Source: Pseudomonas sp. S09G 359
GTDB taxonomy: Bacteria; Pseudomonadota; Gammaproteobacteria; Pseudomonadales; Pseudomonadaceae
Assembly (NCBI RefSeq): GCF_002843605.1
Contig: NZ_CP025263.1
Location: forward strand, 1,122,501 to 1,186,500
Length of the DNA stretch: 64,000 bases
Direction of reading: 5' to 3'
Numbering within the stretch: the first letter of the stretch is position 1; each line of letters begins with the position of its first letter. Positions 34,176-59,167 of this stretch are shown here, one piece after another. A program made the position numbers and the translations under genes. The notes below the pieces were generated by a model. The model saw only the letters and a list, made by a program, of their open reading frames with translations. It did no database searches and was not told the origin of the DNA.

Positions 34176-34898
34176 GGGTGGAGTACATATCCGTTTCTGC
34201 GGTAACGGCTGCTTATGGTTCCGCTCTTACAGCGGGTCACTTTTGGAAGGACCCAAAAGTAACCAAAAGGTCCTCGCCCCACCACTCGGCACCTCGCTTA
34301 GGCTCGGTGTGCCCGTAATCCGACAGTGATTTGGGGGGCCGCCGCCACGCGCCATCCATGGCGCGGGGCGGCTAAACCGGCATCCCTGCCGGTTTACCCC
34401 CCAAATCACTGTCGAATTCCGGCCAGCGTGGTTGACGGGGCGATTTCAGATCAAAATCAAAAGCCAAAGCAGATCAAAAGCAGGGCACGGCGGCCTAGTA
34501 GCCGACCTGAGTGGTTAGATCAAAAGCGTTTTTGCTTTGCTTTGTTTTTGCTGTGGCCCTTACATCCTTTGCGCTGACGAAGTCAGCGGTCTTTTGATCT
34601 GCGCTTTTGATCGTGATCTTGATCTTGATCTTAGGCGCCCCGTTAAACACGCTGGCCGAACGCAGGCTTGAATCCGTGGGTAACCCGGCAGGACGCCGGG
34701 TTAGCCGCGATGGGCCAAGGATGGCCCATGGCGGCGGCCCACGGATTCAAGCCGGAGTGAGGGCACACCGAGCCTAAGCGAGGTGCCGAGTGTTGGGGCA
34801 AGAGCCCTTTTGGTTACTTTTGGGGCTCTTTTCCAAAAGTGACCCGCCGTAAGGGCGGAACCATAAGCCGCCGTTACCGCAGCAACGGATATACACCC
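34176..34898. repeat. gene-free island bounded by large inverted repeats
   Basis: Two imperfect inverted arms of about 138 bp (34176-34314 and 34761-34898) bound this island. Each contains ATATCCGTT, CGGTAACGGC, ATGGTTCCGC, CACTTTTGGAA/AAG and GCACCTCGCTTAGGCTCGGT. Inside are nested palindromes: CGACAGTGATTTGGGGGG...CCCCCCAAATCACTGTCG (34320-34337/34398-34415), GGCTTGAATCCGTGGG...CCCACGGATTCAAGCC (about 34667-34753), and direct GATCAAAAGC and GATCTTGATCTT repeats. No ORF looks coding. Comparable large dispersed repeats are known from P. fluorescens genomes. It separates yaaA from the deacetylase gene. Confidence 0.8.
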
Positions 34899-45962: not shown

Positions 45963-46451
45963 CTAGGAGGCTTTCAGGGCTTTTTGCGTTTCGTTGTTGG
46001 TGGTGTAGCTGAAGGCGTTCCGCAGGTCTGCACCTTCGGCCAGTTCTTTGACGTCGGTGAGCAAGTGGGGGTAACGATCCAGCAGACGCAGCAACACCAT
46101 CACCGGTTTGGGCGGTGTTATTTCGCCGCGTTCGTAGCGTGAGAATGCGTTGTGCCCGCCACCGGAGAGCAATTGCACGGTTTCTTTTTGCGTGAGGTGC
46201 AGCATGCGGCGGATACGCTTGAGTTCGGCGCCCATCATCCCTCGGGCGGCGTGGAGCAGATCATCACTTGCCTTGGCATGGCGGTCGCAGCTGTCGGGGT
46301 CATACATGCCGTCTTCACAGACCTGGCATTCCCAGCCCGATAGATCATCAATGCGCCGCTCCATGCCTTTTATGCACATGGTTTCGCTGCGGCCTTCAAA
46401 GCGTGTCATGGCGTCGGGGGCGCCACAGATACAGCACTGTTGCGTTTTCAT
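45963..46451 (-). CDS. mqsA: MqsA-type antitoxin (zinc-binding, HTH)
   Basis: 162 residues. An N-terminal zinc domain with CCICG and, about 35 residues on, WECQVCEDGMYDP provides the two CxxC pairs. The C-terminal HTH_XRE domain (LKRIRRMLHLTQKETVQLLSGG...NAFSRYERGEITPP) binds DNA; SRYE is the recognition-helix part. It neutralises MqsR and represses the operon. It is about 30 residues longer than E. coli MqsA (131 aa), with an extra C-terminal tail after YPHLL. Its start overlaps the mqsR stop by four bases. Confidence 0.93.
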   Translation of the reverse strand: MKTQQCCICGAPDAMTRFEGRSETMCIKGMERRIDDLSGWECQVCEDGMYDPDSCDRHAKASDDLLHAARGMMGAELKRIRRMLHLTQKETVQLLSGGGHNAFSRYERGEITPPKPVMVLLRLLDRYPHLLTDVKELAEGADLRNAFSYTTNNETQKALKAS

Positions 46452-46759
46452 GGGTTCATCCCTTTGAAGGAGATCACCGGTGGGTTACTACCTGAGCAGT
46501 AAGTGACCTTGATGTAAATCTCCAGACCGTGTGAATGGGTGTGGTAGACGTCATGCCAGACCCGGTGATCGGCATAGGTGGTCATCGACTTGTACAACAT
46601 CCTGTTTTGCAATTCGAAAACGACCGCTTGCATCTCAGCGAGATCAAGGTCGAGAGCCTCTGCGGTTTTCTTTGCCGCACGTGTGAAAGCCTTGGCACCA
46701 AGCCGTCTCACATCCGCCTTTATCACCGCCAAATCGTAATGAGGTGTGTACTTTTCCAT
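46448..46759 (-). CDS. mqsR: MqsR-type mRNA interferase toxin
   Basis: 103 residues. It resembles E. coli MqsR, a GCU-specific, ribosome-independent mRNA endonuclease of the RelE-like fold, across its length (MEKYTPHYDL; the YKSMTTYADH block). Of the catalytic residues described in E. coli, Lys56 (here Lys57) and Tyr81 (Tyr82) are kept, but Gln68 is replaced by His69 (WHDVY for WQDVY). Toxin first, antitoxin second, as in the E. coli operon. Low G+C upstream. Confidence 0.93.
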   Translation of the reverse strand: MEKYTPHYDLAVIKADVRRLGAKAFTRAAKKTAEALDLDLAEMQAVVFELQNRMLYKSMTTYADHRVWHDVYHTHSHGLEIYIKVTYCSGSNPPVISFKGMNP

Positions 46760-48835: not shown

Positions 48836-49459
48836 CTACAAGTACCTCATTGTCAGGGTCATGGAGCCATCGATAGGCACCTCTTGGGTCAATGGCAACG
48901 TATTGGCCGGGGCGATGTTGGGGGTGATGCTCAGGTCTGCGATCACCTGTTGGATCGGTGTCGGGGTCAGTATTTTTGGGGTGGCGGCGAACGACGTGAG
49001 GAACATATGCGACAGCAAATCCGTCGGGGCCCAGGTCGCTGAGGTGTCTGAACCGATGGGATACACGCGTGTGCCATTGTCCAGAATCGACTCAAGTCTC
49101 AGGCTCATATAACCGAGCTGTGTGCCACCGTCGATAAGCCCCAGACCGAAGCGAACTGAATTCCCGGTGTAGGCGGAACCTGCACGGTTATCACTGGGCG
49201 CAAGGGCCAGCAAGGTCGGGGCAGCACAGGTGATCGTCAGTTGCAGGCGATGTGTCGGCAACCGGGTTGGCTGGTCGACGTTCAGGTCCTTGGCGGCAAT
49301 CTTGCCCAGGTCGTACACGCCGCCATTGGACAGGTTGGGCTCGCAGGCACTGGGAGTAATCACGCCGGTGATGTTCAGGTCGACGCTGGACGCCGCGATA
49401 GCCTGGCTCGCGCCGACCAGTATCAGGGCGGCGAACAGGGGGGTTGTAAACTTACTCAT
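48836..49459 (-). CDS. DUF1120 secreted protein, putative fimbrial subunit (last gene)
   Basis: 207 residues from ATG 49459 (MSKFTTPLFAALILVGASQAIA signal). The mature N-terminus ASSVDLNITGVITPSACEP and LSNGGVYDLGKIAAKDLN match the DUF1120 pattern shared by all subunits of this cluster, with a Cys pair (SAC and ITC) likely forming a disulfide. It ends LTMRYL; the penultimate Tyr is the classic chaperone-recognition feature of pilins. E. coli DUF1120 proteins such as YhcF lie in chaperone-usher operons, which supports a structural role. It is the most distal gene of the cluster. Confidence 0.82.
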   Translation of the reverse strand: MSKFTTPLFAALILVGASQAIAASSVDLNITGVITPSACEPNLSNGGVYDLGKIAAKDLNVDQPTRLPTHRLQLTITCAAPTLLALAPSDNRAGSAYTGNSVRFGLGLIDGGTQLGYMSLRLESILDNGTRVYPIGSDTSATWAPTDLLSHMFLTSFAATPKILTPTPIQQVIADLSITPNIAPANTLPLTQEVPIDGSMTLTMRYL

Positions 49460-49481
49460 GGCTGGCTCATTTGTTGAAGGG

Positions 49482-50132
49482 TTATAGGTAAAGCACTTCA
49501 AGCGTGGCCGAGCCGTCGATGGGGGTGTCCACCGTCAGGTCCAGGTTCTGCTTGGCGTTGATCACGGTTTGCAGCGTGAGGGTGCTGGTCAAGTTCTGGA
49601 TGGCCGAAGGCCCGGCAGTGCTGCCCGCTACGTCGGTGAAGCCCAGAAAACTCCTGGAACCGATGTCGATGGCGTTGGTGTTGGAGATGCGCCAGGCGAC
49701 GCCGCCGGTGGTTGACTCGGTGCCATAGGTCACCGGCAAGGCATCGGCCACGGTCTGTTTGGGGTCAAAGCTCAGCGAATACACACCGAGCTTGTTGCCT
49801 GCGCGGTCCAGCCCTAGCCCGTAATAGATCTCGCTGTTGACGTGCGCGGTGCCGTCGCGGTTATCGGCCATGCGCAGCGCGTAACGGCTCGGGGCCTCGC
49901 AGTTGATGGTTATGCTGAGGTTGCGCACCGGCAGGCGTGTGCCGCGATCGGCGTTCAAGTCCTGTTGGGAAATCTTGCCGTAGTCGACCAACCCGCTGCT
50001 CGACAGCGCAGGCGTGCAGGCTGTGGGGGTGAGCAGTCCGGTGATAGCGAGGTCGGTGCTGGACGCCGCCATGGCGCCGGCGCTGAGGCCCAATAGGGCA
50101 AGCGTTGCGAGGGAAAGCTGGCGCAGGTTCAT
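49482..50132 (-). CDS. DUF1120 secreted protein, putative fimbrial subunit
   Basis: 216 residues from ATG 50132, which has AAGGAG seven bases ahead; an ATG two codons earlier is too close to that site. Signal peptide LSLATLALLGLSAGAMA, then SSTDLAITGLLTPTACTPALSSSG (in parts) and DYGKISQQDLNADRGTRLP, the family N-terminal block. Ends LEVLYL. It is most like the C-terminal domain of the two-domain protein upstream (shared STTGGVAW and SFLGFTD/SLLGFTE), so these two probably arose by duplication. Confidence 0.83.
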   Translation of the reverse strand: MNLRQLSLATLALLGLSAGAMAASSTDLAITGLLTPTACTPALSSSGLVDYGKISQQDLNADRGTRLPVRNLSITINCEAPSRYALRMADNRDGTAHVNSEIYYGLGLDRAGNKLGVYSLSFDPKQTVADALPVTYGTESTTGGVAWRISNTNAIDIGSRSFLGFTDVAGSTAGPSAIQNLTSTLTLQTVINAKQNLDLTVDTPIDGSATLEVLYL

Positions 50133-50147
50133 GACCATACTCCTTGT

Positions 50148-51275
50148 TCAGAGGTAGATAATTTCAATCGTGCCCGACCCATCGAGCACGACGTCTGTGC
50201 GCAGATCCAGGCTGTTCATGGGCGACAGAATGGCGCGCACGCTGATCTGCCCGCTGAGGTTCTGGATTGCGATGGGGCCGGCATGGCTGCCGGGTGTTTC
50301 GGTGAAGCCCAACAAGCTGTTACTGCCGATGGGAATCGGGTAGCCGCTGGAACTGCTCCAGGCCACGCCGCCGGTGGTGGAGTCGGTGCGATACACATGG
50401 GGCAGGGCATCGGCGCGCAGGTCGAAGGGGTCGAAATAAAGGTAATAGCGACCGATTTTATTGCGGCCGTCGTCCACCCCCAGGCCGTAGGCGGTTTCGT
50501 CGGTGCCGCCGGTGGCCGAGCCTTTGCGGTTGTCTTGCATGCGCAAGGCAAAACGGGTGGGGCCGTCGCAGCCGATGCTCAGCATCAGGTTGCGCGAGGC
50601 CAGCCCGGTTTCCTTGTCGGCGCTCAGGCTCTTGGCCCACATCCGACCAAAATCGACGATGCCGCCGTTGGACAGGCTGGCCTCGCAGGCCGCCGGAGCG
50701 AAGCCGGCTTGCAGTGACAACTCCCGGGCGCGGCCCGTGTTCACGGCGTCGATCAACCCGGTGGCTTCCCAGGTCACGGCGTCGCGCACTTGCGTGGCGT
50801 CGGCCTGGGCCCAGGCGCTCACCTGCAACTGTGCGGAAAAGCTGCTGCCAGTGGTGGGCAGGCCATCGCGCAACGGCACGATGGCATGCTCGGGCCGCCA
50901 GTCGAGTGCCTGGCCGCGGGCAGTGGGCGCCTGGCCTTGCCCGGTGACCAGGCCCAATTCCACGGCCTGGCCGTCGAGCACCGCATCGCTGATCTGCACC
51001 CGGTAGCTGCCGCGCTCGTTAAAGCGGTAACGTTCGGCGGTGGCCGCCAAGGCCCGGTAAAACACGTGCAGGTCGGTGGGCGTCGGGCAGTTGAGGTTGA
51101 GGCTCAGGCGGCGCTCGCCCAGCAGGATTTCAGCGCTGGGGTTGCGCTGCACTGCGCGGTTCATCACGCCGAAATCCAGGCGCGCCTGGCTCAGGTTGAG
51201 CTGGCAGTCATCGGCGTGCGCCTGGCCCTGGACGACGGCGGCCAGGGCCACGCCCAGCAGTAAAAATCGCTTCAT
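50148..51275 (-). CDS. two-domain DUF1120 protein, candidate tip adhesin
   Basis: 375 residues from ATG 51275 with AGGAA upstream (an ATG five codons earlier overlaps the usher stop). After the signal peptide (LLLGVALAAVVQGQAHA) an extra N-terminal domain of about 165 residues starts with DDCQLNLSQARLDFGVMNR. The C-terminal part (about 190-375) is a DUF1120 domain (PAACEASLSNGGIVDFGRMWAKSL) ending IEIIYL. An adhesin domain joined to a pilin domain is how fimbrial tip proteins are built, and it lies directly after the usher gene. No binding specificity can be read from the sequence. Confidence 0.8.
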   Translation of the reverse strand: MKRFLLLGVALAAVVQGQAHADDCQLNLSQARLDFGVMNRAVQRNPSAEILLGERRLSLNLNCPTPTDLHVFYRALAATAERYRFNERGSYRVQISDAVLDGQAVELGLVTGQGQAPTARGQALDWRPEHAIVPLRDGLPTTGSSFSAQLQVSAWAQADATQVRDAVTWEATGLIDAVNTGRARELSLQAGFAPAACEASLSNGGIVDFGRMWAKSLSADKETGLASRNLMLSIGCDGPTRFALRMQDNRKGSATGGTDETAYGLGVDDGRNKIGRYYLYFDPFDLRADALPHVYRTDSTTGGVAWSSSSGYPIPIGSNSLLGFTETPGSHAGPIAIQNLSGQISVRAILSPMNSLDLRTDVVLDGSGTIEIIYL

Positions 51276-51286
51276 CAGAGTGTTCC

Positions 51287-53731
51287 TCATGGCGTCACAC
51301 AGCGCGCCGGGGCGGTTTCGAAATACACTTGCGGGTCGGCGTCCTGCGCAAGGTCGACCTGCAGTTCACAACGGCGCATGCCCTCGGCCTTGACCCACAA
51401 GCGGCGCGGGTCCATCACGTTCGGCAGGAACACCTGGCTGCCTTCCTGCACCAGGGTCACGAACTCGCCGTCGGCGGTGCTAACAGTGGCGCCGCGGGGC
51501 AGCGGCGCGCCATGGTCGGTGGTGACGGTGAGCAAGGCGCGACGGGTCAGGGCCACGCCGAATTCCACGCGGTCCACCGCGCCGCGCCCGGCGGTGATCA
51601 CGGCGAGGCCGTTGCTGATATCGGCATTGCGTGGCAGCGACTGGGTTTGCACTTCCACGGCACTGCGCCCGTAGGCAGACACCTGCGGCACCACCGCCTG
51701 GCCGAGGGCGTCGGTCCACACCGGGCCGCTTGGCGTGGTGAGCTTGACCCCGGCCATATCGCCCACCGACACCAGCGCGAAGGTGTCGCGCACCGGGTAC
51801 GGCGAGAACGTCACCCCACCGCTGTGGGCCACCACCGCGCCGCGCGCGCCGCCCTGGTAGCTGGAGCGTTCGGCGTCGGAGCGGCTGTAGTTGAGGTCCA
51901 GTTGCGCGTAACGCGGCAAGTAGGACACGCCCAGGGTGGACTCCACTTGCTGGTCGCGGCTGTCATGCTCGGCGCTGACCCGGTAACTGAGTTGATCGTT
52001 GATCTGCTCGTTCACCCCCAGGCCGATACGGTGCTCGCCACCGGAATTACGCACCCAGGCGCGGCCACGGCGGTTTTCGCCGAGGGGCACGCTGAGGTTC
52101 AGGTACACCGCGTTCTCGTCATTCTGGCGGCCGCTGACCTGCCACTCGGCGCTGGCCGAGAGCGAGACGCCACGCACGCTGGTGCCCCATGACGCGAGGG
52201 CGCGGCTGCTGTTTTCGCCGTTGAAAGTAGTGGTGCGCGACACCCCGGCGTTGACCGCGCCCAGCCATGGATGGGCCCAGCCCAGTGACAGGCTCTGCTG
52301 GTCGCGATAGCGGGTACGCCGGCCTTCGTCGTCGCGCGAATCGTAGTAGGTGGTGTCCTCCAGTTCCCGGTAGCCCATGGTGCGGTGGGACGCGCCGGCG
52401 GTGATCGACCACTGCTGGCCCAGGCGTTGCGACAGCGTGAGGTCGGTTTGCACCCCGCGCTCGTGTTGGCGTTGGGCATCGGCAATTTGGGTCGACAGCT
52501 GCACCTGCCCGTCGGGCCATGGCAACAGGCCCAGGCTGGCGCCGGTCGCGCGGTAATCCTCAGCGACCAGCCCGCCGGCGCCCACGCTCAGTCGCGGGTT
52601 CAGCGCACCACTCCAACCGGCACTTACAACCCACGGATCGTCGCCCTGGGTATTGCCGATATTGCGCACCCGCCCGGCCCCCACCGAGTAACCCGCGGCC
52701 GGCAGGCCAATGCCGAGCATGGCCGCCGGCACGGTGAAACGCCGTTCTTCGCCGCTGCTTTCCTTGACGGTGACTTCAACGTCGGCACGCGTGTTCAGGC
52801 GCCGTACATCGGTCAGCGAGAACGGCCCGGCCGGCACCACCGTGGAGTGAATCAGCGCGCCGTTCTGGCGCACTTCAACCTGGGCCGGGCTGTTGGCGAT
52901 GCCGTTGATGGTCGAGCCTTGTTCCTGGTCCTGCAGCGCCTGTTCGGTGAACACCTGCATACCGGTGATCTGTGCCGAGGACAGCACCGGGTTGTAGAGG
53001 CTGATCTGCCCGGCCTGCAACACCGCTTGCTGCTCGGCGAACGTACGCTGGGCATAGGCTTCCAGGTGTGTGGTGCGCGAGCGGGAATCCTGCCAGGTCT
53101 GCACCTGGCGGCTGCGCACGATCCAGTCGCCGGCGTTGAAGCCCACCTCGGTATTGGCCGAGCCGAAGCGGCTGGCGTCGTCGCCATAGCGGTTGTACAA
53201 ACCGGTGAGGTCGTAGTTGAGCAGGCCGGCGAAGCCACCGGTTTCATAACCGGACAGCTCGCGTTGACGTGGGCGCAGGGCTTCGGTGGGCACGATCAGG
53301 CTCACGCTCAGGCTGGCGGGGTCTTGCTCCACCACGGTTTGCGGGTACTCGCCGAGGAAGTCATGGCAGCCGCTGTCGCCCAGTGGCGCGGGTACCACCA
53401 GGTCGGCGGCGTCCAGTAGCGGCCGGTCAAAGCACAGCGCGCCCTGGCCGTCGAAGCGTGCATCGAGGCGGCCACGGCGCTGGCCGTTCACCGTCAGGCT
53501 CACGGCGTGGTGCCCGCTGGTATAGCGCGGTGCGTCCAGCAGCAGGTAGGCCAGCTCCGGGTCGATGCCGCGCTGGTGCAGGGTTTTCGAGTCAAAGGTG
53601 TCGGCCAATGCCTCGGCCGACAGCAGGGCCATGGTCAGTGGCAGCGCGGCCCTGAACAGGGCGGGGCGCAAAGGACAGTCGGGCACGGCTTCGCCGGCCG
53701 GGTCAGTGGTTACTGTGTTCACGTAAGGCAC
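51287..53731 (-). CDS. fimbrial outer-membrane usher (FimD/PapC family)
   Basis: 814 residues from GTG 53731; GTG 53722 is an equally good or better start. A long signal region (FRAALPLTMALLSAEALADTF) precedes an N-terminal chaperone-binding domain, a 24-strand barrel with the plug (around SPAQVEVRQNGALIHSTVVPAGPFSLTD), and C-terminal domains (APLPRGATV, GQVFLPN-like SQVFLPNVM). It is the assembly platform that secretes chaperone-subunit complexes and grows the fibre at the cell surface. The last residues include two Cys (RRCELQV, ARCVTP). Confidence 0.95.
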   Translation of the reverse strand: MPYVNTVTTDPAGEAVPDCPLRPALFRAALPLTMALLSAEALADTFDSKTLHQRGIDPELAYLLLDAPRYTSGHHAVSLTVNGQRRGRLDARFDGQGALCFDRPLLDAADLVVPAPLGDSGCHDFLGEYPQTVVEQDPASLSVSLIVPTEALRPRQRELSGYETGGFAGLLNYDLTGLYNRYGDDASRFGSANTEVGFNAGDWIVRSRQVQTWQDSRSRTTHLEAYAQRTFAEQQAVLQAGQISLYNPVLSSAQITGMQVFTEQALQDQEQGSTINGIANSPAQVEVRQNGALIHSTVVPAGPFSLTDVRRLNTRADVEVTVKESSGEERRFTVPAAMLGIGLPAAGYSVGAGRVRNIGNTQGDDPWVVSAGWSGALNPRLSVGAGGLVAEDYRATGASLGLLPWPDGQVQLSTQIADAQRQHERGVQTDLTLSQRLGQQWSITAGASHRTMGYRELEDTTYYDSRDDEGRRTRYRDQQSLSLGWAHPWLGAVNAGVSRTTTFNGENSSRALASWGTSVRGVSLSASAEWQVSGRQNDENAVYLNLSVPLGENRRGRAWVRNSGGEHRIGLGVNEQINDQLSYRVSAEHDSRDQQVESTLGVSYLPRYAQLDLNYSRSDAERSSYQGGARGAVVAHSGGVTFSPYPVRDTFALVSVGDMAGVKLTTPSGPVWTDALGQAVVPQVSAYGRSAVEVQTQSLPRNADISNGLAVITAGRGAVDRVEFGVALTRRALLTVTTDHGAPLPRGATVSTADGEFVTLVQEGSQVFLPNVMDPRRLWVKAEGMRRCELQVDLAQDADPQVYFETAPARCVTP

Positions 53732-53796
53732 TCAAGTTATGGAAGACCGCAACGGTTGGCGGGCTTCCCGGTGACAGTCACAGGGCTGTCACTTCG

Positions 53797-54495
53797 TTAT
53801 TCAGCGTTAGCTGCGGTTATCGGTGCTTCATAGGCGGCGACGGCAAAGCCGTACACGGTGGCCGGTTGCAGGCGTACGGCCGTGGCGGCGTGGGGCGCGC
53901 TGAGCCGCAAGGTTTCACCGGGTAGTACGTAGGTTCGTGGTAGCACCAGGCCTTGTTTGCCGGGCAGCAGTTGCAGCTCTTGCGCCAGACGCACCACGTA
54001 AGGCGTGGGGTTGGCGATGTTCAGGTGGCCGTCTTTGAGCGCCCAGGTGAGCCCGGTCCAGGGCGTGCGGTTTGGCGCCAGGCCCTTGGGGTGAATGATC
54101 ACTGGCAGGTTTTGCCGCACGGTCACGCCGACGCGCGCATGCCCGGCCTGCTGGGCGTCGCGGTCCTTGGGCATGCCTTCGAAGATCACGCGTTTCAGGC
54201 GCTGGGTTTGCAGCGGCGTGCGGTTCTGCAGAATGAAGCGCACCAGCTGGCTTTTGTCCGCTTCCACCCGGGACAGGGGCGGAGTGACAAACAGCAGTGA
54301 CTCGGTGTCTTCCGGGATGTTTTCGAGGGTGACGTGCAGCAGCGCCAGCTTGCCGTCAGTGTTGGTGACCGACACCGAGGCTTCGCCATCGGCCTCGTTG
54401 ACGATCACCACCGAGGTGTCGGGCACCATGCCGTCGGCGAACACGTGGCTGCTCAGTAGCCAGCCCAGGGCCAGCAAGGTTGGAAAGGTCTTCAT
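53797..54495 (-). CDS. periplasmic fimbrial chaperone (PapD family)
   Basis: 232 residues. Signal peptide MKTFPTLLALGWLLSSHVFA, then two Ig-like domains: VVIVNEADGEASVSVTNTDG in domain 1, the FVTPPLSRVEADKSQLVRFI block (P-L-x-R-x-x) before the G1 strand and QTQRLKRVIFEGMP, then domain 2 from about 130 with PWTGLTW and ANPTPYVVRL. It folds DUF1120 subunits by donor-strand complementation and carries them to the usher. It lies between four upstream subunit genes and the usher. Confidence 0.94.
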   Translation of the reverse strand: MKTFPTLLALGWLLSSHVFADGMVPDTSVVIVNEADGEASVSVTNTDGKLALLHVTLENIPEDTESLLFVTPPLSRVEADKSQLVRFILQNRTPLQTQRLKRVIFEGMPKDRDAQQAGHARVGVTVRQNLPVIIHPKGLAPNRTPWTGLTWALKDGHLNIANPTPYVVRLAQELQLLPGKQGLVLPRTYVLPGETLRLSAPHAATAVRLQPATVYGFAVAAYEAPITAANAE

Positions 54496-54522
54496 GATGC
54501 ACTTCCTGAAATGATCACGGGC

Positions 54523-55152
54523 TTAGAGGTAACGCAGGTCCAGCACCAATGAACCGTCGAGGGGAACGTCTTGCCTGAGGGTCAGGCGGTTCGCCGGGTT
54601 GATGGTGGTTTGCGCACGGATACGGGTGTTCAACATGACGATGGGCTCGGGAAACGGCCGGCCGGGGCGGGCGAAGCCCATCAGGGTCCTGGGGTGGATG
54701 GCCGGTTGAGGAGACCAGCCGCCGCTTTGGGGTTTGGACGCAAGGGACTGCATGATTTGGCCGTCCCCTTGCGCGGTTTCGAACGCCAGGCCCACGGAGC
54801 CCAAATGTTCGGTGGGCACGTTGGGGTTTGTGCCCAGGCCGTAGGTGGTCTCCGGTGCGGTGGACGAATCCTCGCGGCTGTCCAGGCCGATCAGGGCAAA
54901 CAGCATGGGGCCGCTGCAGATGATCTCCACCTCCAGCCACTGGCTGGGCAAGGGGGTGGGCGCTTCCTGGTTCAATGTATGAACGGGGATGGTGCCGTGG
55001 TCGATCACCCCGCTGCCGGACAGCGCGATGGTGCAGGAGCTGGGGGTGACCAGGCCAGAAAGGGTCATTTCAGTCGCGCTGCGGGCAAACACGCTAGAGC
55101 CGGTGTTGAGCAATAACAGCGCCGCGCACAGGCGTAGGGTTCTGTTCATCAT
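54523..55152 (-). CDS. DUF1120 secreted protein, divergent putative fimbrial subunit
   Basis: 209 residues. Signal peptide LCAALLLLNTGSSVFA, then SATEMTLSGLVTPSSCTIALSGSG (in parts) and IDHGTIPVHTL. It is the most divergent DUF1120 member of the cluster: the usual KDLN becomes PVHTLN, and the central region is Pro- and Gly-rich (GGWSPQPAIHPRT). Ends LDLRYL. Its position immediately before the chaperone and its divergence suggest a specialised subunit such as an adaptor or a base terminator. Confidence 0.8.
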   Translation of the reverse strand: MMNRTLRLCAALLLLNTGSSVFARSATEMTLSGLVTPSSCTIALSGSGVIDHGTIPVHTLNQEAPTPLPSQWLEVEIICSGPMLFALIGLDSREDSSTAPETTYGLGTNPNVPTEHLGSVGLAFETAQGDGQIMQSLASKPQSGGWSPQPAIHPRTLMGFARPGRPFPEPIVMLNTRIRAQTTINPANRLTLRQDVPLDGSLVLDLRYL

Positions 55153-55213
55153 TCGGTCTTCAATGTGTTCGGTACAAATAAGGCGCCTCGCCGCGCACGG
55201 CGAGGCGACGGGT

Positions 55214-55840
55214 TTACAGGTACTTCACTTCGAACGTGGCCGAGCCGTCGATGGGGTGTTCATCGCTCAGGTCGAGGCTGTCGGCGCGGGCGATACGCCC
55301 GTAGACCAGCATGTCGGTGGTCATTTGCTGGATGGGTACCGGCGACCAGATACCGGCAGATTGATTGCCGAATGCCCCCAGCGAGCTGGGCGTCAGTACC
55401 GCATCGCCCGACTCGAACCAGGTCGTGCCGTTGTCCATCGACTCCAACACGGTGACAGCTACGGAGTCGGCGACTGCGTTCATCAGGACCACGTCATAGC
55501 TGCCGAGTTTTTGCGTGCCGTTGATCAGCCCCAGACCGTAGGAGCCTGAAGTGTTAGACCCCGCGCGGTTATCACTGCCTTTGAGCGCGAACAGCGTGCT
55601 CCCCTCGCAACTGATGCTTAATTGCAGCGTCGCGGTCGGCAGAGGCGTAACAGTGGTGAGGTTCAAATCCTTGGCAGAAATCTTGCCGTAGTCGACCATC
55701 CCGGCGCCGGACAGGCTAGGGGTGCAGGCATTCGGGGTGATGATGCCTTTGACGGTCAGGTCGACGGTTGACGCCGCCAGGGCAGAGGCGCTGGTGCTGA
55801 TCAGTAGCGCGGTGGCCAGGGCATTGAGCGTGAGTTTCAT
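55214..55840 (-). CDS. DUF1120 secreted protein, putative major or minor fimbrial subunit
   Basis: 208 residues from ATG 55840 (MKLTLNALATALLISTSASALA signal, in parts); an upstream GTG three codons earlier is too close to AAAGGAA. The mature part opens STVDLTVKGIITPNACTP and has VDYGKISAKDLN, almost the same as the first gene of the cluster, so the two are recent duplicates. GLGLINGTQKLGSY is also shared with it. Two Cys (NAC and ISC). Ends FEVKYL. Confidence 0.83.
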   Translation of the reverse strand: MKLTLNALATALLISTSASALAASTVDLTVKGIITPNACTPSLSGAGMVDYGKISAKDLNLTTVTPLPTATLQLSISCEGSTLFALKGSDNRAGSNTSGSYGLGLINGTQKLGSYDVVLMNAVADSVAVTVLESMDNGTTWFESGDAVLTPSSLGAFGNQSAGIWSPVPIQQMTTDMLVYGRIARADSLDLSDEHPIDGSATFEVKYL

Positions 55841-55882
55841 GGGGCACACGTTTCCTTTCGAGTGGGGCTGATGAAAAAGGGG

Positions 55883-56497
55883 TTACAGGTACTTGAGTTG
55901 TACGGTGGCGTTGCCGTCCAGTGGCACTTCGTCCAGCACGGTCAGGCGGTCGGTGCCATCAATCATGGTGAACAGGCGCAACTCGGCGGTGAAGCGCGTC
56001 ACGGCAATCGGCGTGAGGCCGGTACCGACGGCGATGGCGGTTTGCAGGTGCGGGCCGAGGGAAACCGACGGCCTCCAAGTGGCGCCGCCATCGCTCGATA
56101 CGATGATCTTCGCGGCGACGCCGTCGGCGACCGGGTTGAACAGCCCGAAACCTGCGCTGCCGAGTTTTTCGTTATTGGCTGTCATGCCCAGGCCATGCCA
56201 GTTCTGGTTGATCGCCGAAGTACCCGCGCGGTTATCGAAGGTGCTCATCGCGAGGAACGTCGGCGCGTCACAGAGGATTTCCAATTGCATGGTTTGCGGC
56301 GTCAGAGAGGTCGGCAGGTCTGCACTGAGCTCCTTGGCCGTCATCTTTCCGTAATCCACTACACCACCGCCGGAGAGCTTGGGATCACAGGCATTGGGCG
56401 TGATGATGCCGATGACGGCGAAGTCGGTGTTGCTGGCGGCCAGCGCGGTGGGGGCCAGCAGTACAGCGGCGAGAAAAACAGCGGGTGAAAAATTCAT
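55883..56497 (-). CDS. DUF1120 secreted protein, putative fimbrial subunit
   Basis: 204 residues from ATG 56497 (MNFSPAVFLAAVLLAPTALA signal). The mature start SNTDFAVIGIITPNACDP is followed by LSGGGVVDYGKMTAKELSADLPTSLTP (in parts), matching the shared block with two Cys (NAC and ILC). Ends VQLKYL. Upstream in-frame codons (Cys-rich) are not coding. Second gene of the cluster. Confidence 0.83.
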   Translation of the reverse strand: MNFSPAVFLAAVLLAPTALAASNTDFAVIGIITPNACDPKLSGGGVVDYGKMTAKELSADLPTSLTPQTMQLEILCDAPTFLAMSTFDNRAGTSAINQNWHGLGMTANNEKLGSAGFGLFNPVADGVAAKIIVSSDGGATWRPSVSLGPHLQTAIAVGTGLTPIAVTRFTAELRLFTMIDGTDRLTVLDEVPLDGNATVQLKYL

Positions 56498-56543
56498 AGG
56501 CAAGCGGCACCTTTGGTTGCAGAGTCGATGGCGTATGAGAGGG

Positions 56544-57173
56544 TTACAGGTACAGCACTTCAAGGGTGGCCGAGCCGTCGATATTGACTTCGTTGCTCAG
56601 GTCGAGGCCGTCGGTGCGGTTGATGTAGCCGTTGTAATTGACCTCGGTGACCAGCTCTTGGGTGGGGCGAGGTGTGCTGACGTCTGCCAGGGTGGCCACG
56701 GAGAGCATGAGGCCGTGCTCGAAGGAGTCGTATTTCTCCCAGGTGGTGCCGTTGTCGAATGAGGCGACGGACTGCACGACTTCGCCGTCGGCCAACGGAG
56801 GGTTGGCAGATGAGCCCATGCTCAAACTGTAGAAACCCAATTTCTGCGTGCCATTGATCAACCCCAGGCCGAAGCGGCTGCCTGACCCCGAGCCCAGACG
56901 GTTATCCGTTGCCTTGATGGCGAACAGCACGGGCGCATCGCAGGTCACGGTCATTTGCAGGCTGACGGCCGGCAATGGCGTAACCCTGTCGGTGTTGAGG
57001 TCCTTGGCCGACATCTTGCCGTGGTCGATGACCCCGCCGCTGGACAGGCCAGGGGTGCAGGCATTCGGGGTGATGATGCCCTTGACGGTCAGGTCCACGG
57101 TGCTGGCGGCGAACGCCGGCGCGGTGCCCGTGATCAGCAGGGCGCTGGCAACGGCGATAAGGTGCTTGTTCAT
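56544..57173 (-). CDS. DUF1120 secreted protein, first gene of fimbrial cluster
   Basis: 209 residues. Signal peptide MNKHLIAVASALLITGTAPA with cleavage after AFA, then STVDLTVKGIITPNACTP, SSGGVIDHGKMSAKDLNTDRV and two Cys (NAC and VTC). GLGLINGTQKLGFYSLSMG is shared with the 55214 gene. Ends LEVLYL. First in the transcription unit and so a candidate for the most abundant, major subunit. The promoter should lie in the 358-bp gap to the divergent regulator gene. Confidence 0.84.
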   Translation of the reverse strand: MNKHLIAVASALLITGTAPAFAASTVDLTVKGIITPNACTPGLSSGGVIDHGKMSAKDLNTDRVTPLPAVSLQMTVTCDAPVLFAIKATDNRLGSGSGSRFGLGLINGTQKLGFYSLSMGSSANPPLADGEVVQSVASFDNGTTWEKYDSFEHGLMLSVATLADVSTPRPTQELVTEVNYNGYINRTDGLDLSNEVNIDGSATLEVLYL

Positions 57174-57531
57174 GATGTGTAGTCTCGGTGTTGGGTCAAC
57201 TGACGGGTGCGCGTCGCCGCAGCGCGTTAACAGGTGCGGTTGGGCATAGGGTCAGTTCGGATAGTTGGCCGCCAGCTGAATTGGCGGGTTGCCCTTTTGG
57301 GCTGGGGCGCAATTTAGCGCCGGGGCAGGGGAGGGGAAATACAACAAATACGACATTCCGCTGGTGTCGGAATTGGTTTTTTACAGTGTAGGAAAACCTG
57401 CGTTTTCGTAGTTGTTGTATCGTAACAACACCACTTATGTGGATATCTAATGTCGATATTGCGTTGTTTTTGAGTGTGTCGAAATGGCCACCAAAAAGAA
57501 CTTCATCGCCTGAATAGATATCGAGGTGGCC
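57174..57531. promoter_or_regulatory. divergent control region between fimbrial cluster and phosphorelay gene
   Basis: The right half is clearly AT-richer than the neighbours. It has short dyads: CGACA...TGTCG (57351-57369), nested with TTCCG...CGGAA (57356-57372), and GTTGTT...AACAAC (57411-57429). A TTTTTTACA tract lies between them. These are candidate sites for the BvgA-type regulator encoded downstream. No RNA gene or ORF is convincing here. Confidence 0.45.
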
Positions 57532-58332
57532 ATGAGGCCAAGGGGTCCTGCTCAACCATCACCCTGGGGCAGCCCTCCTGCGCACTGGTGCAACCTGAGC
57601 GTACTGGTCGCTGACGACCACGCCACCTACGGCGCATTGATGGGCTGGTTCCTGCAAAAGTTCGGGCTTGGCCACGAAGTGGTCGCTGACGGGCATAAAG
57701 CCTTATTGGCCAGTGGGCTCCGACGTTTCGACCTGGTGATCAGCGATTGTCGGATGCCGGTGCTGGATGGCTACGACATGGCTCGGCAGATGCGCCTTCG
57801 CGAGCGCGTCGAAGGCCGCCAGCGAGTCCCGATCATTGCCTTGACCGCCCACCTGACGCCCGACGATCTGCAGCGCGGCCTTGAGGCCGGCATGGACGCC
57901 TGGCTGCTCAAACCGTTGTCGGCCCAGCGCCTGCGTGAAGTCCTGGAGCACTGGCTACCGGGGCCGTCAGGCTACGCCGCCAGCCCGTTTGTGGCCGTGG
58001 TGCCGGCACGCTGGCCAACCCGTGCCGAACTGATCGAAACCTTTGGCGATGAGCAGGTGGTAAACCGCCTGCTGCGCAGCCTCTTGCATGAGGCCAATGT
58101 GGACTATGCCGGCCTGCTGCATGCCTGTAACACCCTGGATCAACAAGCCACCGTTGAGTGTTTGCATCGCTTGCTGGGCAGCCTGGCGTTTCTTGCCGGC
58201 ACCGAGCCGGACCCGAGCGCGGCGCTTTTGATCGAGGACGTGCGTCAGCACGGCATTGTGCGCAACGAGCGGGCACTGCAGAAATTCGAGCAAGGGCTGA
58301 CGGTGTATCTGCGGTATTTGACAGATTTATGA
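57532..58332 (+). CDS. orphan receiver-HPt phosphorelay protein (BvgS/EvgS C-terminal-like)
   Basis: 266 residues from ATG 57532 (GAGG five bases upstream; a GTG two codons earlier has no site). Residues about 20-145 are a receiver with acidic pair ADDH, phospho-acceptor Asp72 (LVISDCRMPVLDG), Thr in LTAH and Lys127 (LLKPLS). Residues about 165-260 are an HPt-like helical bundle with His212 in CLHRLLGSL; the usual HxxKG Lys is Leu. This is the C-terminal half of an unorthodox BvgS/EvgS-type kinase without sensor, HAMP or kinase domains. It probably relays phosphate from an unlinked kinase to the response regulator at 58532. Confidence 0.88.
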   Translation: MRPRGPAQPSPWGSPPAHWCNLSVLVADDHATYGALMGWFLQKFGLGHEVVADGHKALLASGLRRFDLVISDCRMPVLDGYDMARQMRLRERVEGRQRVPIIALTAHLTPDDLQRGLEAGMDAWLLKPLSAQRLREVLEHWLPGPSGYAASPFVAVVPARWPTRAELIETFGDEQVVNRLLRSLLHEANVDYAGLLHACNTLDQQATVECLHRLLGSLAFLAGTEPDPSAALLIEDVRQHGIVRNERALQKFEQGLTVYLRYLTDL

Positions 58333-58531: not shown

Positions 58532-59167
58532 ATGTTTCGCGTAATTATTGCTGACGATCACCCCATTGTGCGCATTGGCCAGCGGGTGGTGATCGAGGCG
58601 GGCGGTACGTGCAAGGTGGTGGGTGAGGCCGAGGGGCCCGATGAGTTGCTCGTGCTGTTGGGTAACACGCCGTGCGATCTACTGGTGACCGACTTCACCA
58701 TGCCGGGCGGGCAGCAGGCCGACGGTTATGTGCTGTTGGGGTTGCTGCGACGCCAATACCCGGATTTACCGGTGATTCTGGTGACGATGTTCGCCAATAT
58801 CGTCACCTTACGCGCCTCCTTTGCCCAAGGCGCGCGGGCGATCATCGCCAAGAGCGCCTCATCCAAGGAGTTGCCGTTGGCGATCAGGGCTGTCACCCAA
58901 GGCAAGACGTTCGTCAGCGAGGGGCTGCGTGCGCAGATGGTCGAGGCCGGGACCCGTGATCAATCCCAACAACCCCAGTTGTCCAGCCGCGAGCGTGAGG
59001 TGGTGCGCCTGCTCGCCAGCGGTATGACCGTCAGCGAGATCGCCGCCCAGGTCAATCGCAGTGTTTCCACCATCAGCAAGCAGAAAAGCACCGCGATGAA
59101 CCGCCTGTGCATTTCCACGGATGTGGATCTGTTCGCCTATGCGCGAAGTTGTGGGATGGTGCCATAG
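58532..59167 (+). CDS. NarL/BvgA-family response regulator
   Basis: 211 residues. Receiver with IIADDHP at 6-11, phospho-acceptor Asp54 (LLVTDFTMPGG), Thr85 and Lys107, then a LuxR-type HTH (LSSREREVVRLLASGMTVSEIAAQVNRS in parts, about 150-207, with STISKQKSTAMNRL recognition helix). It resembles BvgA/EvgA/RcsB-type regulators that receive phosphate from HPt domains, matching the REC-HPt protein upstream. Weak ribosome binding site (GTGGTTTTTT). Regulation of the DUF1120 fimbrial cluster is inferred from position. Confidence 0.92.
   Translation: MFRVIIADDHPIVRIGQRVVIEAGGTCKVVGEAEGPDELLVLLGNTPCDLLVTDFTMPGGQQADGYVLLGLLRRQYPDLPVILVTMFANIVTLRASFAQGARAIIAKSASSKELPLAIRAVTQGKTFVSEGLRAQMVEAGTRDQSQQPQLSSREREVVRLLASGMTVSEIAAQVNRSVSTISKQKSTAMNRLCISTDVDLFAYARSCGMVP

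Follow-up and report, generated by a model that had tools for sequence, protein, structure and literature searches.

A beta-class chaperone-usher locus of Pseudomonas with a two-domain, tip adhesin-like DUF1120 protein and a variable set of probable pilin genes

We analysed a stretch of 64,000 nucleotides from Pseudomonas sp. S09G 359 (contig NZ_CP025263.1, positions 1,122,501 to 1,186,500, forward strand; henceforth the window) that harbours a chaperone-usher locus with DUF1120 proteins. Profile searches confirmed nine genes, all on the minus strand and within 48836-57173, in the order S1, S2, S3, S4, chaperone, usher, a 380-residue fusion protein, S5 and S6, bearing out the content that an initial annotation had read from the letters (one chaperone, one usher and seven DUF1120 proteins on one strand). 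All seven small proteins matched PF06551 (DUF1120) at 35.1 to 64.5 bits (cut-off 21 bits) and, as seven of the eight DUF1120 matches in the whole genome fall at this one locus, the grouping of the genes is more than chance. The starts given in the open reading frame list were too long for some genes, and ATG codons were chosen anew from the sequence for S2 (56497), S3 (55840), S5 (50138 or 50132) and S6 (49459), each followed by a signal-peptide-like stretch as judged by eye. With the starts chosen in this analysis the intergenic gaps measure 9 to 65 bases and the usher gene shares 4 bases with the fusion gene, so that the nine genes likely form one operon, with the following features:

56544..57173, minus strand: S1, single-domain DUF1120 pilin candidate of 209 residues, first gene of the operon (PF06551, 56.5 bits)
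55883..56497, minus strand: S2, single-domain DUF1120 pilin candidate (PF06551, 60.8 bits)
55214..55840, minus strand: S3, single-domain DUF1120 pilin candidate (PF06551, 56.8 bits), the allele sharply different between near relatives
54523..55152, minus strand: S4, single-domain DUF1120 pilin candidate adjoining the chaperone gene (PF06551, 35.1 bits)
53797..54495, minus strand: periplasmic chaperone of the YhcA (PRK09918) subfamily, without the classical anchor residues
51287..53731, minus strand: YhcD-like outer-membrane usher (PF00577, 323 bits; usher tree)
50148..51290, minus strand: 380-residue fusion with a signal-peptide-like start, a YhcE-like putative tip domain, a donor-strand-like linker and a DUF1120 pilin domain (NF011829 and PF06551)
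50688..50738, minus strand: linker between the two domains of the fusion (residues 160-176 of the mature protein), similar in sequence pattern to the N-terminal extension of a pilin
49482..50138, minus strand: S5, single-domain DUF1120 pilin candidate, of the six the nearest to the pilin domain of the fusion (PF06551, 64.5 bits)
48836..49459, minus strand: S6, single-domain DUF1120 pilin candidate, last gene of the operon (PF06551, 61.7 bits)

S1 to S6 share (6/6) an N-terminal extension of about 16 residues, one Cys pair and a C-terminal YL, and the structure predicted by AlphaFold2 (AF2) for S1, the only one of the six to be folded, is a pilin fold with a loose N-terminus at a predicted local distance difference test score (pLDDT) of 94.2. 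In N-terminal extension, Cys pair and C-terminal strand the six proteins appear to match pilins with an incomplete immunoglobulin fold, all of them by pattern and S1 also by prediction. The proposal of the initial annotation that the DUF1120 proteins are the pilins of a yhc-type system is thereby strengthened; it had named a fold unlike that of a pilin as contrary evidence, and the fold predicted for S1, on which this was checked, is that of a pilin. Sequence searches of solved structures with S1 or the fusion returned no relative (three chance rows each), and DUF1120 showed no significant match to five Fim proteins when profiles were compared. We regard a pilin as the likely job of DUF1120 proteins.

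The fusion protein consists of a YhcE-like domain, devoid of an N-terminal extension, followed by a DUF1120 domain; its match to NF011829 scores 73.9 bits against a cut-off of 226, with residues 11-176 as the best stretch, and its match to PF06551 scores 62.3 bits over residues 197-266. The best matches of its predicted structure are the two-domain tip adhesins CupB6, CfaE, LpfD and FimH, CupB6 being the top VIA match, and this predicted architecture, an N-domain without an extension plus a pilin domain, resembles that of a two-domain tip adhesin, whose N-domain would bind a receptor. Unrelated entries also appear among the structural matches, which slightly lowers our confidence. The linker shows the pattern of a pilin N-terminal extension and so probably completes the tip domain in cis. 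The seven DUF1120 proteins, which had initially been counted as equivalents, therefore include one two-domain protein like a tip adhesin, and a scheme of seven interchangeable pilins was dropped.

The chaperone (69.9 bits with PapD_N) falls into the PRK09918 subfamily, with 249.2 bits for NF007392 against a cut-off of 183. We aligned 100 chaperones (the window, YhcA, 80 loci from named genomes, see below, and 18 further genomes). The column of FimC Arg8 holds Val in 99/100 and Ile in 1/100 sequences, that of FimC Lys112 holds Pro throughout (100/100), and the alignment with Caf1M likewise places Pro opposite the Lys of its KLLVRP stretch. Conserved instead are Gln128 (99/100), Arg102 and Arg169 (both 100/100) and Tyr215 (98/100); Arg102, Arg169 and Tyr215 may correspond to Arg89, Arg174 and Tyr196 of CsuC, which itself was not among the 28 sequences returned by the profile search. 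Beta-class chaperones are described as lacking the classical anchors and carrying non-classical ones, with Gln in the G1 strand (excerpt of PMC4654587). Akin to these, the chaperone of the window has neither classical carboxylate anchor and has Gln in its G1 strand; the missing anchors, already known for the beta class, are here a mark of that class.

The usher points the same way. A tree was built from 19 rows (own_L004 and L035 being one usher), none of them a labelled reference for the alpha, kappa, pi or sigma class. It separates YhcD, together with the ushers linked to DUF1120, from FimD and from three other ushers encoded by the genome, with a support of 0.997. A further usher locus of the same genome (L006, near 4.29 Mb) encodes an usher very divergent from the others, on a long branch. 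The usher of the window shares 33% identity with YhcD (785 aligned positions) and 22% with YbgQ (804), and YbgO gave no match to the DUF1120 profile, to which GltF and YhcF score 155.3 and 161.1 bits; kinship with yhc rather than ybg, two comparisons suggested at the outset, is thus upheld. The Cup proteins met in the comparison were the CupB2 and CupB6 structures, with no Cup usher among them. Among 16 NCBIfam models matched by the usher, the best was NF011832 (PRK15304; 668.6 bits, cut-off 723). Proteins of the window match PRK15301-PRK15304, models that presumably stem from stj, below their cut-offs. To judge from these sequence comparisons, we place the locus in the beta class of chaperone-usher pili, together with E. 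coli Yhc and Salmonella Stj, the latter a beta-class system according to an excerpt of PMC9238391.

With E. coli Yhc (gltF-yhcA-yhcD-yhcE-yhcF) the locus shares DUF1120 subunits that precede the chaperone and follow the usher, a YhcA-type chaperone, a YhcD-type usher and a YhcE-like domain directly after the usher. However, YhcE and YhcF are encoded by separate genes with a 4-base overlap, whereas in the window the YhcE-like domain is fused to DUF1120, and E. coli has two single-domain pilins as opposed to six. The YhcE-like and DUF1120 models are also separate for Stj, whose thin fibres have been seen by microscopy (excerpt of PMC5583245). The two-domain tip architecture is common to the fusion and to CupB6 (excerpt of PMC5022761), CupE6 (excerpt of PMC10104325) and E. 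coli FimH, although phmmer found no sequence relation and the strand after the tip domain of the fusion looks like a pilin extension.

Relatives also occur in other Pseudomonas genomes: DUF1120 matches occur in 39 of 119 genomes of a genus sample, our own included. Comparison of 40 stretches (39 from other genomes, one own), with profiles built on sequences of the window and of E. coli yhc, to which L035 was added in the case of YhcE, revealed two main plans, a long one with the fusion, as in the window, and a short one (DUF1120-chaperone-usher-YhcE). Both are present in our genome, the short one being L035 (6494000-6508000), which encodes a single DUF1120 pilin and, as a separate protein, a YhcE homologue 34% identical to the N-domain of the fusion. 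L035 and the 12 further stretches of the short plan (13 copies) share DUF1120, chaperone, usher and YhcE-like genes with the window and differ by their one pilin and stand-alone YhcE homologue. A class-wide DUF1120 search returned only our genome (1/274), which we do not read as absence, for the family is present in E. coli K-12 and yet none of 14 control genomes, an E. coli strain among them, was positive. In one stretch (L034, genome G051) a beta-type locus is split into many short frames; contamination of that genome is 9%, and an assembly error is possible.

From a scan of named genomes with the usher alignment, the best 80 of 297 relatives were kept, all of them Pseudomonas; the four nearest (three labelled P. 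viridiflava, one P. syringae) have ushers 92-96% identical to ours, which suggests a plant-associated Pseudomonas and not P. aeruginosa. Chaperone and usher are present in 80/80 and the fusion label in 79/80; in the remaining locus (L120) the label was misplaced, and a 380-residue protein matched by both profiles is present there as well. The number of single-domain pilins, in contrast, varies: 1 in 4 loci, 2 in 4, 3 in 5, 4 in 8, 5 in 26, 6 in 16, 7 in 8, 8 in 7 and 9 in 2, counting DUF1120 genes of at least 150 residues, including a distant opposite-strand copy in 18 loci and excluding short fragments, present in 5. Among the 40 stretches, L031 has 11 such genes in the operon and 1 beyond, and L013 has 1. 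Recurrent pilin groups emerged from clustering, namely an S5-type group of 69 pilins, an S2 group in 69/81 loci and an S4 group in 59/81 loci. The inference that many distinct subunits point to an elaborate fibre is weak in light of homologous loci whose operons encode between 1 and 11 single-domain pilins; as some go down to a single one, one pilin plus the fusion seems enough, and seven DUF1120 proteins is a local state. A lone DUF1120 gene beyond the response regulator gene (see below), pointing away from the operon, was observed in L012, L024, L031 and 18 of the 80 named loci, those of the latter forming their own cluster of 18.

Single pilin genes also diverge sharply between near relatives. 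Chaperone and usher proteins of the window are 92-98% identical to those of L048-L051, whereas single pilins fall to 65-76% (S3 with L048, L050 and L051; S2 with L049 and L050), the neighbours of the divergent pilin in L048 and L049 remaining at 91-96%. At the DNA level, S3 is 74% identical in L048, between S2 and S4 at 95% each, and S2 is 81% identical in L049, between S1 and S3 at 92% each. The synonymous divergence (dS) from L048 is 0.90 for S3 and 0.13-0.44 for the other eight genes; as dS rises alongside the nonsynonymous divergence (dN) for the same genes, the comparison speaks for alleles acquired through recombination more than for fast selection. The reading of a decayed locus was set aside (dN/dS ratios of 0.05-0.37).

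We propose, with a probability of about 0.72, that the locus is a beta-class operon for a thin adhesive pilus with the fusion as its tip and S1-S6 as shaft and junctions. S1-S6 would be exported and then held by the YhcA-type chaperone via donor-strand complementation, and the pilins would polymerise through the usher by exchange of their N-terminal extensions. The 380-residue protein would be the tip: its YhcE-like N-domain has no extension and so could not be added behind another subunit, its linker would fill the groove of that domain in cis, and its C-terminal DUF1120 domain would accept the extension of the pilin that follows, perhaps S5, to which it is most closely related. Shaft and junctions would consist of the remaining pilins in strain-specific mixtures. 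In a broader reading, to which we give slightly better than even odds, evolution fused a tip subunit to its next pilin with the donor strand in cis; YhcE of E. coli and its relatives would, by the fusion rule, be a tip subunit filled by the extension of a DUF1120 pilin, for instance YhcF, beta-class pili would have tips, and around a constant tip, chaperone and usher the shaft pilins of Pseudomonas strains would be exchanged and expanded gene by gene into strain-specific mixed fibres.

The spread in pilin number, from 1 to 9 across the 80 loci and up to 11 in one operon, and the divergence of single pilin genes next to conserved neighbours (S3 with L048, S2 with L049) would also suit a store of alternative cassettes, one or two used per fibre, that preserves variants of the cell surface as a defence against phages, predators or recognition by a host and for which turnover is the point; however, three recurrent groups (S5-type, S4, S2) suggest distinct roles, and we hold such a store to be rather unlikely. 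Alternatively, the product may be a surface layer, thin or afimbrial, that lacks a specific adhesin, as has been suggested for beta-class systems, the 380-residue protein being a mere initiator or cap. An excerpt of PMC5216030, citing Nuccio and Baumler 2007, speaks of beta-class pili without tip subunits, and no ligand is known for this system, but the predicted fold of the fusion resembles two-domain tip adhesins and beta-class Stj was seen as slightly curved appendages, among fimbriae 2.3-3.5 nm thick (excerpt of PMC5583245); we consider this layer unlikely. That DUF1120 proteins are periplasmic, with another function, and merely share the operon is very improbable given the predicted pilin fold, the extensions, the Cys pair and the constant link with chaperone and usher in 80 loci, even though E. 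coli gltF sits behind gltBD and a database paper files DUF1120 under electron transport complex III (excerpt of PMC12828279), a listing that conflicts with a secreted pilin.

An adhesive pilus with the fusion at its tip would assign probable functions to DUF1120 (pilin) and YhcE (tip domain), the latter called of unclear function in an excerpt of PMC5216030, and would account for a gene in the E. coli operon whose role is unclear. It questions the idea that beta-class pili have no tips, offers the fusion as a natural in-cis donor-strand construct whose stability as a protein could be tested, and marks a conserved Pseudomonas surface locus with rapid pilin-gene turnover. A pairing of DUF1120 with chaperone-usher systems was not found in the open-licence literature, and neither this locus nor the fusion is named in the titles or abstract starts among the matches listed for CupE/Pseudomonas, GltF/yhcA, Stj, beta-fimbriae, P. 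fluorescens ushers and YhcE tips, an earlier mention of Pseudomonas beta loci being possible. For strain SS101, chaperone-usher clusters with two subunits have been described, whose class could not be told (excerpt of PMC3390384). Within the literature searched we found no earlier description of the fused tip and the pilin turnover; the beta class itself is already known.

The operon is flanked by genes for a FadR-type regulator and a major facilitator superfamily (MFS) transporter on one side and by two regulator genes on the other, which together with a hairpin complete the features of the locus:

57526..58332, plus strand: receiver protein, divergent from the operon (PF00072, 77.2 bits; best NCBIfam matches are receiver parts of hybrid kinases)
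58532..59167, plus strand: LuxR/RcsB-like response regulator (PF00072 and PF00196; RcsB model 146.8 bits, cut-off 235)
55184..55207, minus strand: GC-rich stem-loop of 10 pairs between S3 and S4, followed by a T-rich stretch, tentatively a possible attenuator

Homologues were found at 77 of the 80 loci for the response regulator, 48 for the receiver, 79 for the MFS transporter and 67 for FadR, contig ends cutting some. The receiver protein probably has a C-terminal histidine phosphotransfer (Hpt) domain, whose motif was recognised by eye without a Pfam match. Phosphorelay regulators adjoin the cup genes of P. aeruginosa; the divergent receiver/RcsB-like pair recalls them, and the neighbouring response regulators may control the operon. 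Through the stem-loop, S4 and the assembly genes could be expressed at a lower level than S1-S3. Between 48700 and 58600 a promoter scan returned 1 site (1.4 expected) and terminator-like sites numbered 10 (8.2 expected), a count near chance, so that the case for the hairpin rests on its own strength and on other loci. There, folding z-scores of -2 or below were obtained for 38% of the 65 gaps scored ahead of the pilin nearest the chaperone and for 0/48 and 0/42 in the next two gaps upstream; other gaps fold too (39% of 77 chaperone-usher gaps, 45% of 20 that follow the fusion and 65% of 34 that separate downstream pilins), and a stem-loop is thus not special to that position. Elsewhere in the window, an MqsR-MqsA type toxin-antitoxin pair adjoins the FadR and MFS genes (45963-46759, minus strand), and two Rfam TwoAYGGAY RNA matches above the gathering score lie on opposite strands about 230 bases apart (34307-34428, minus; 34658-34760, plus).
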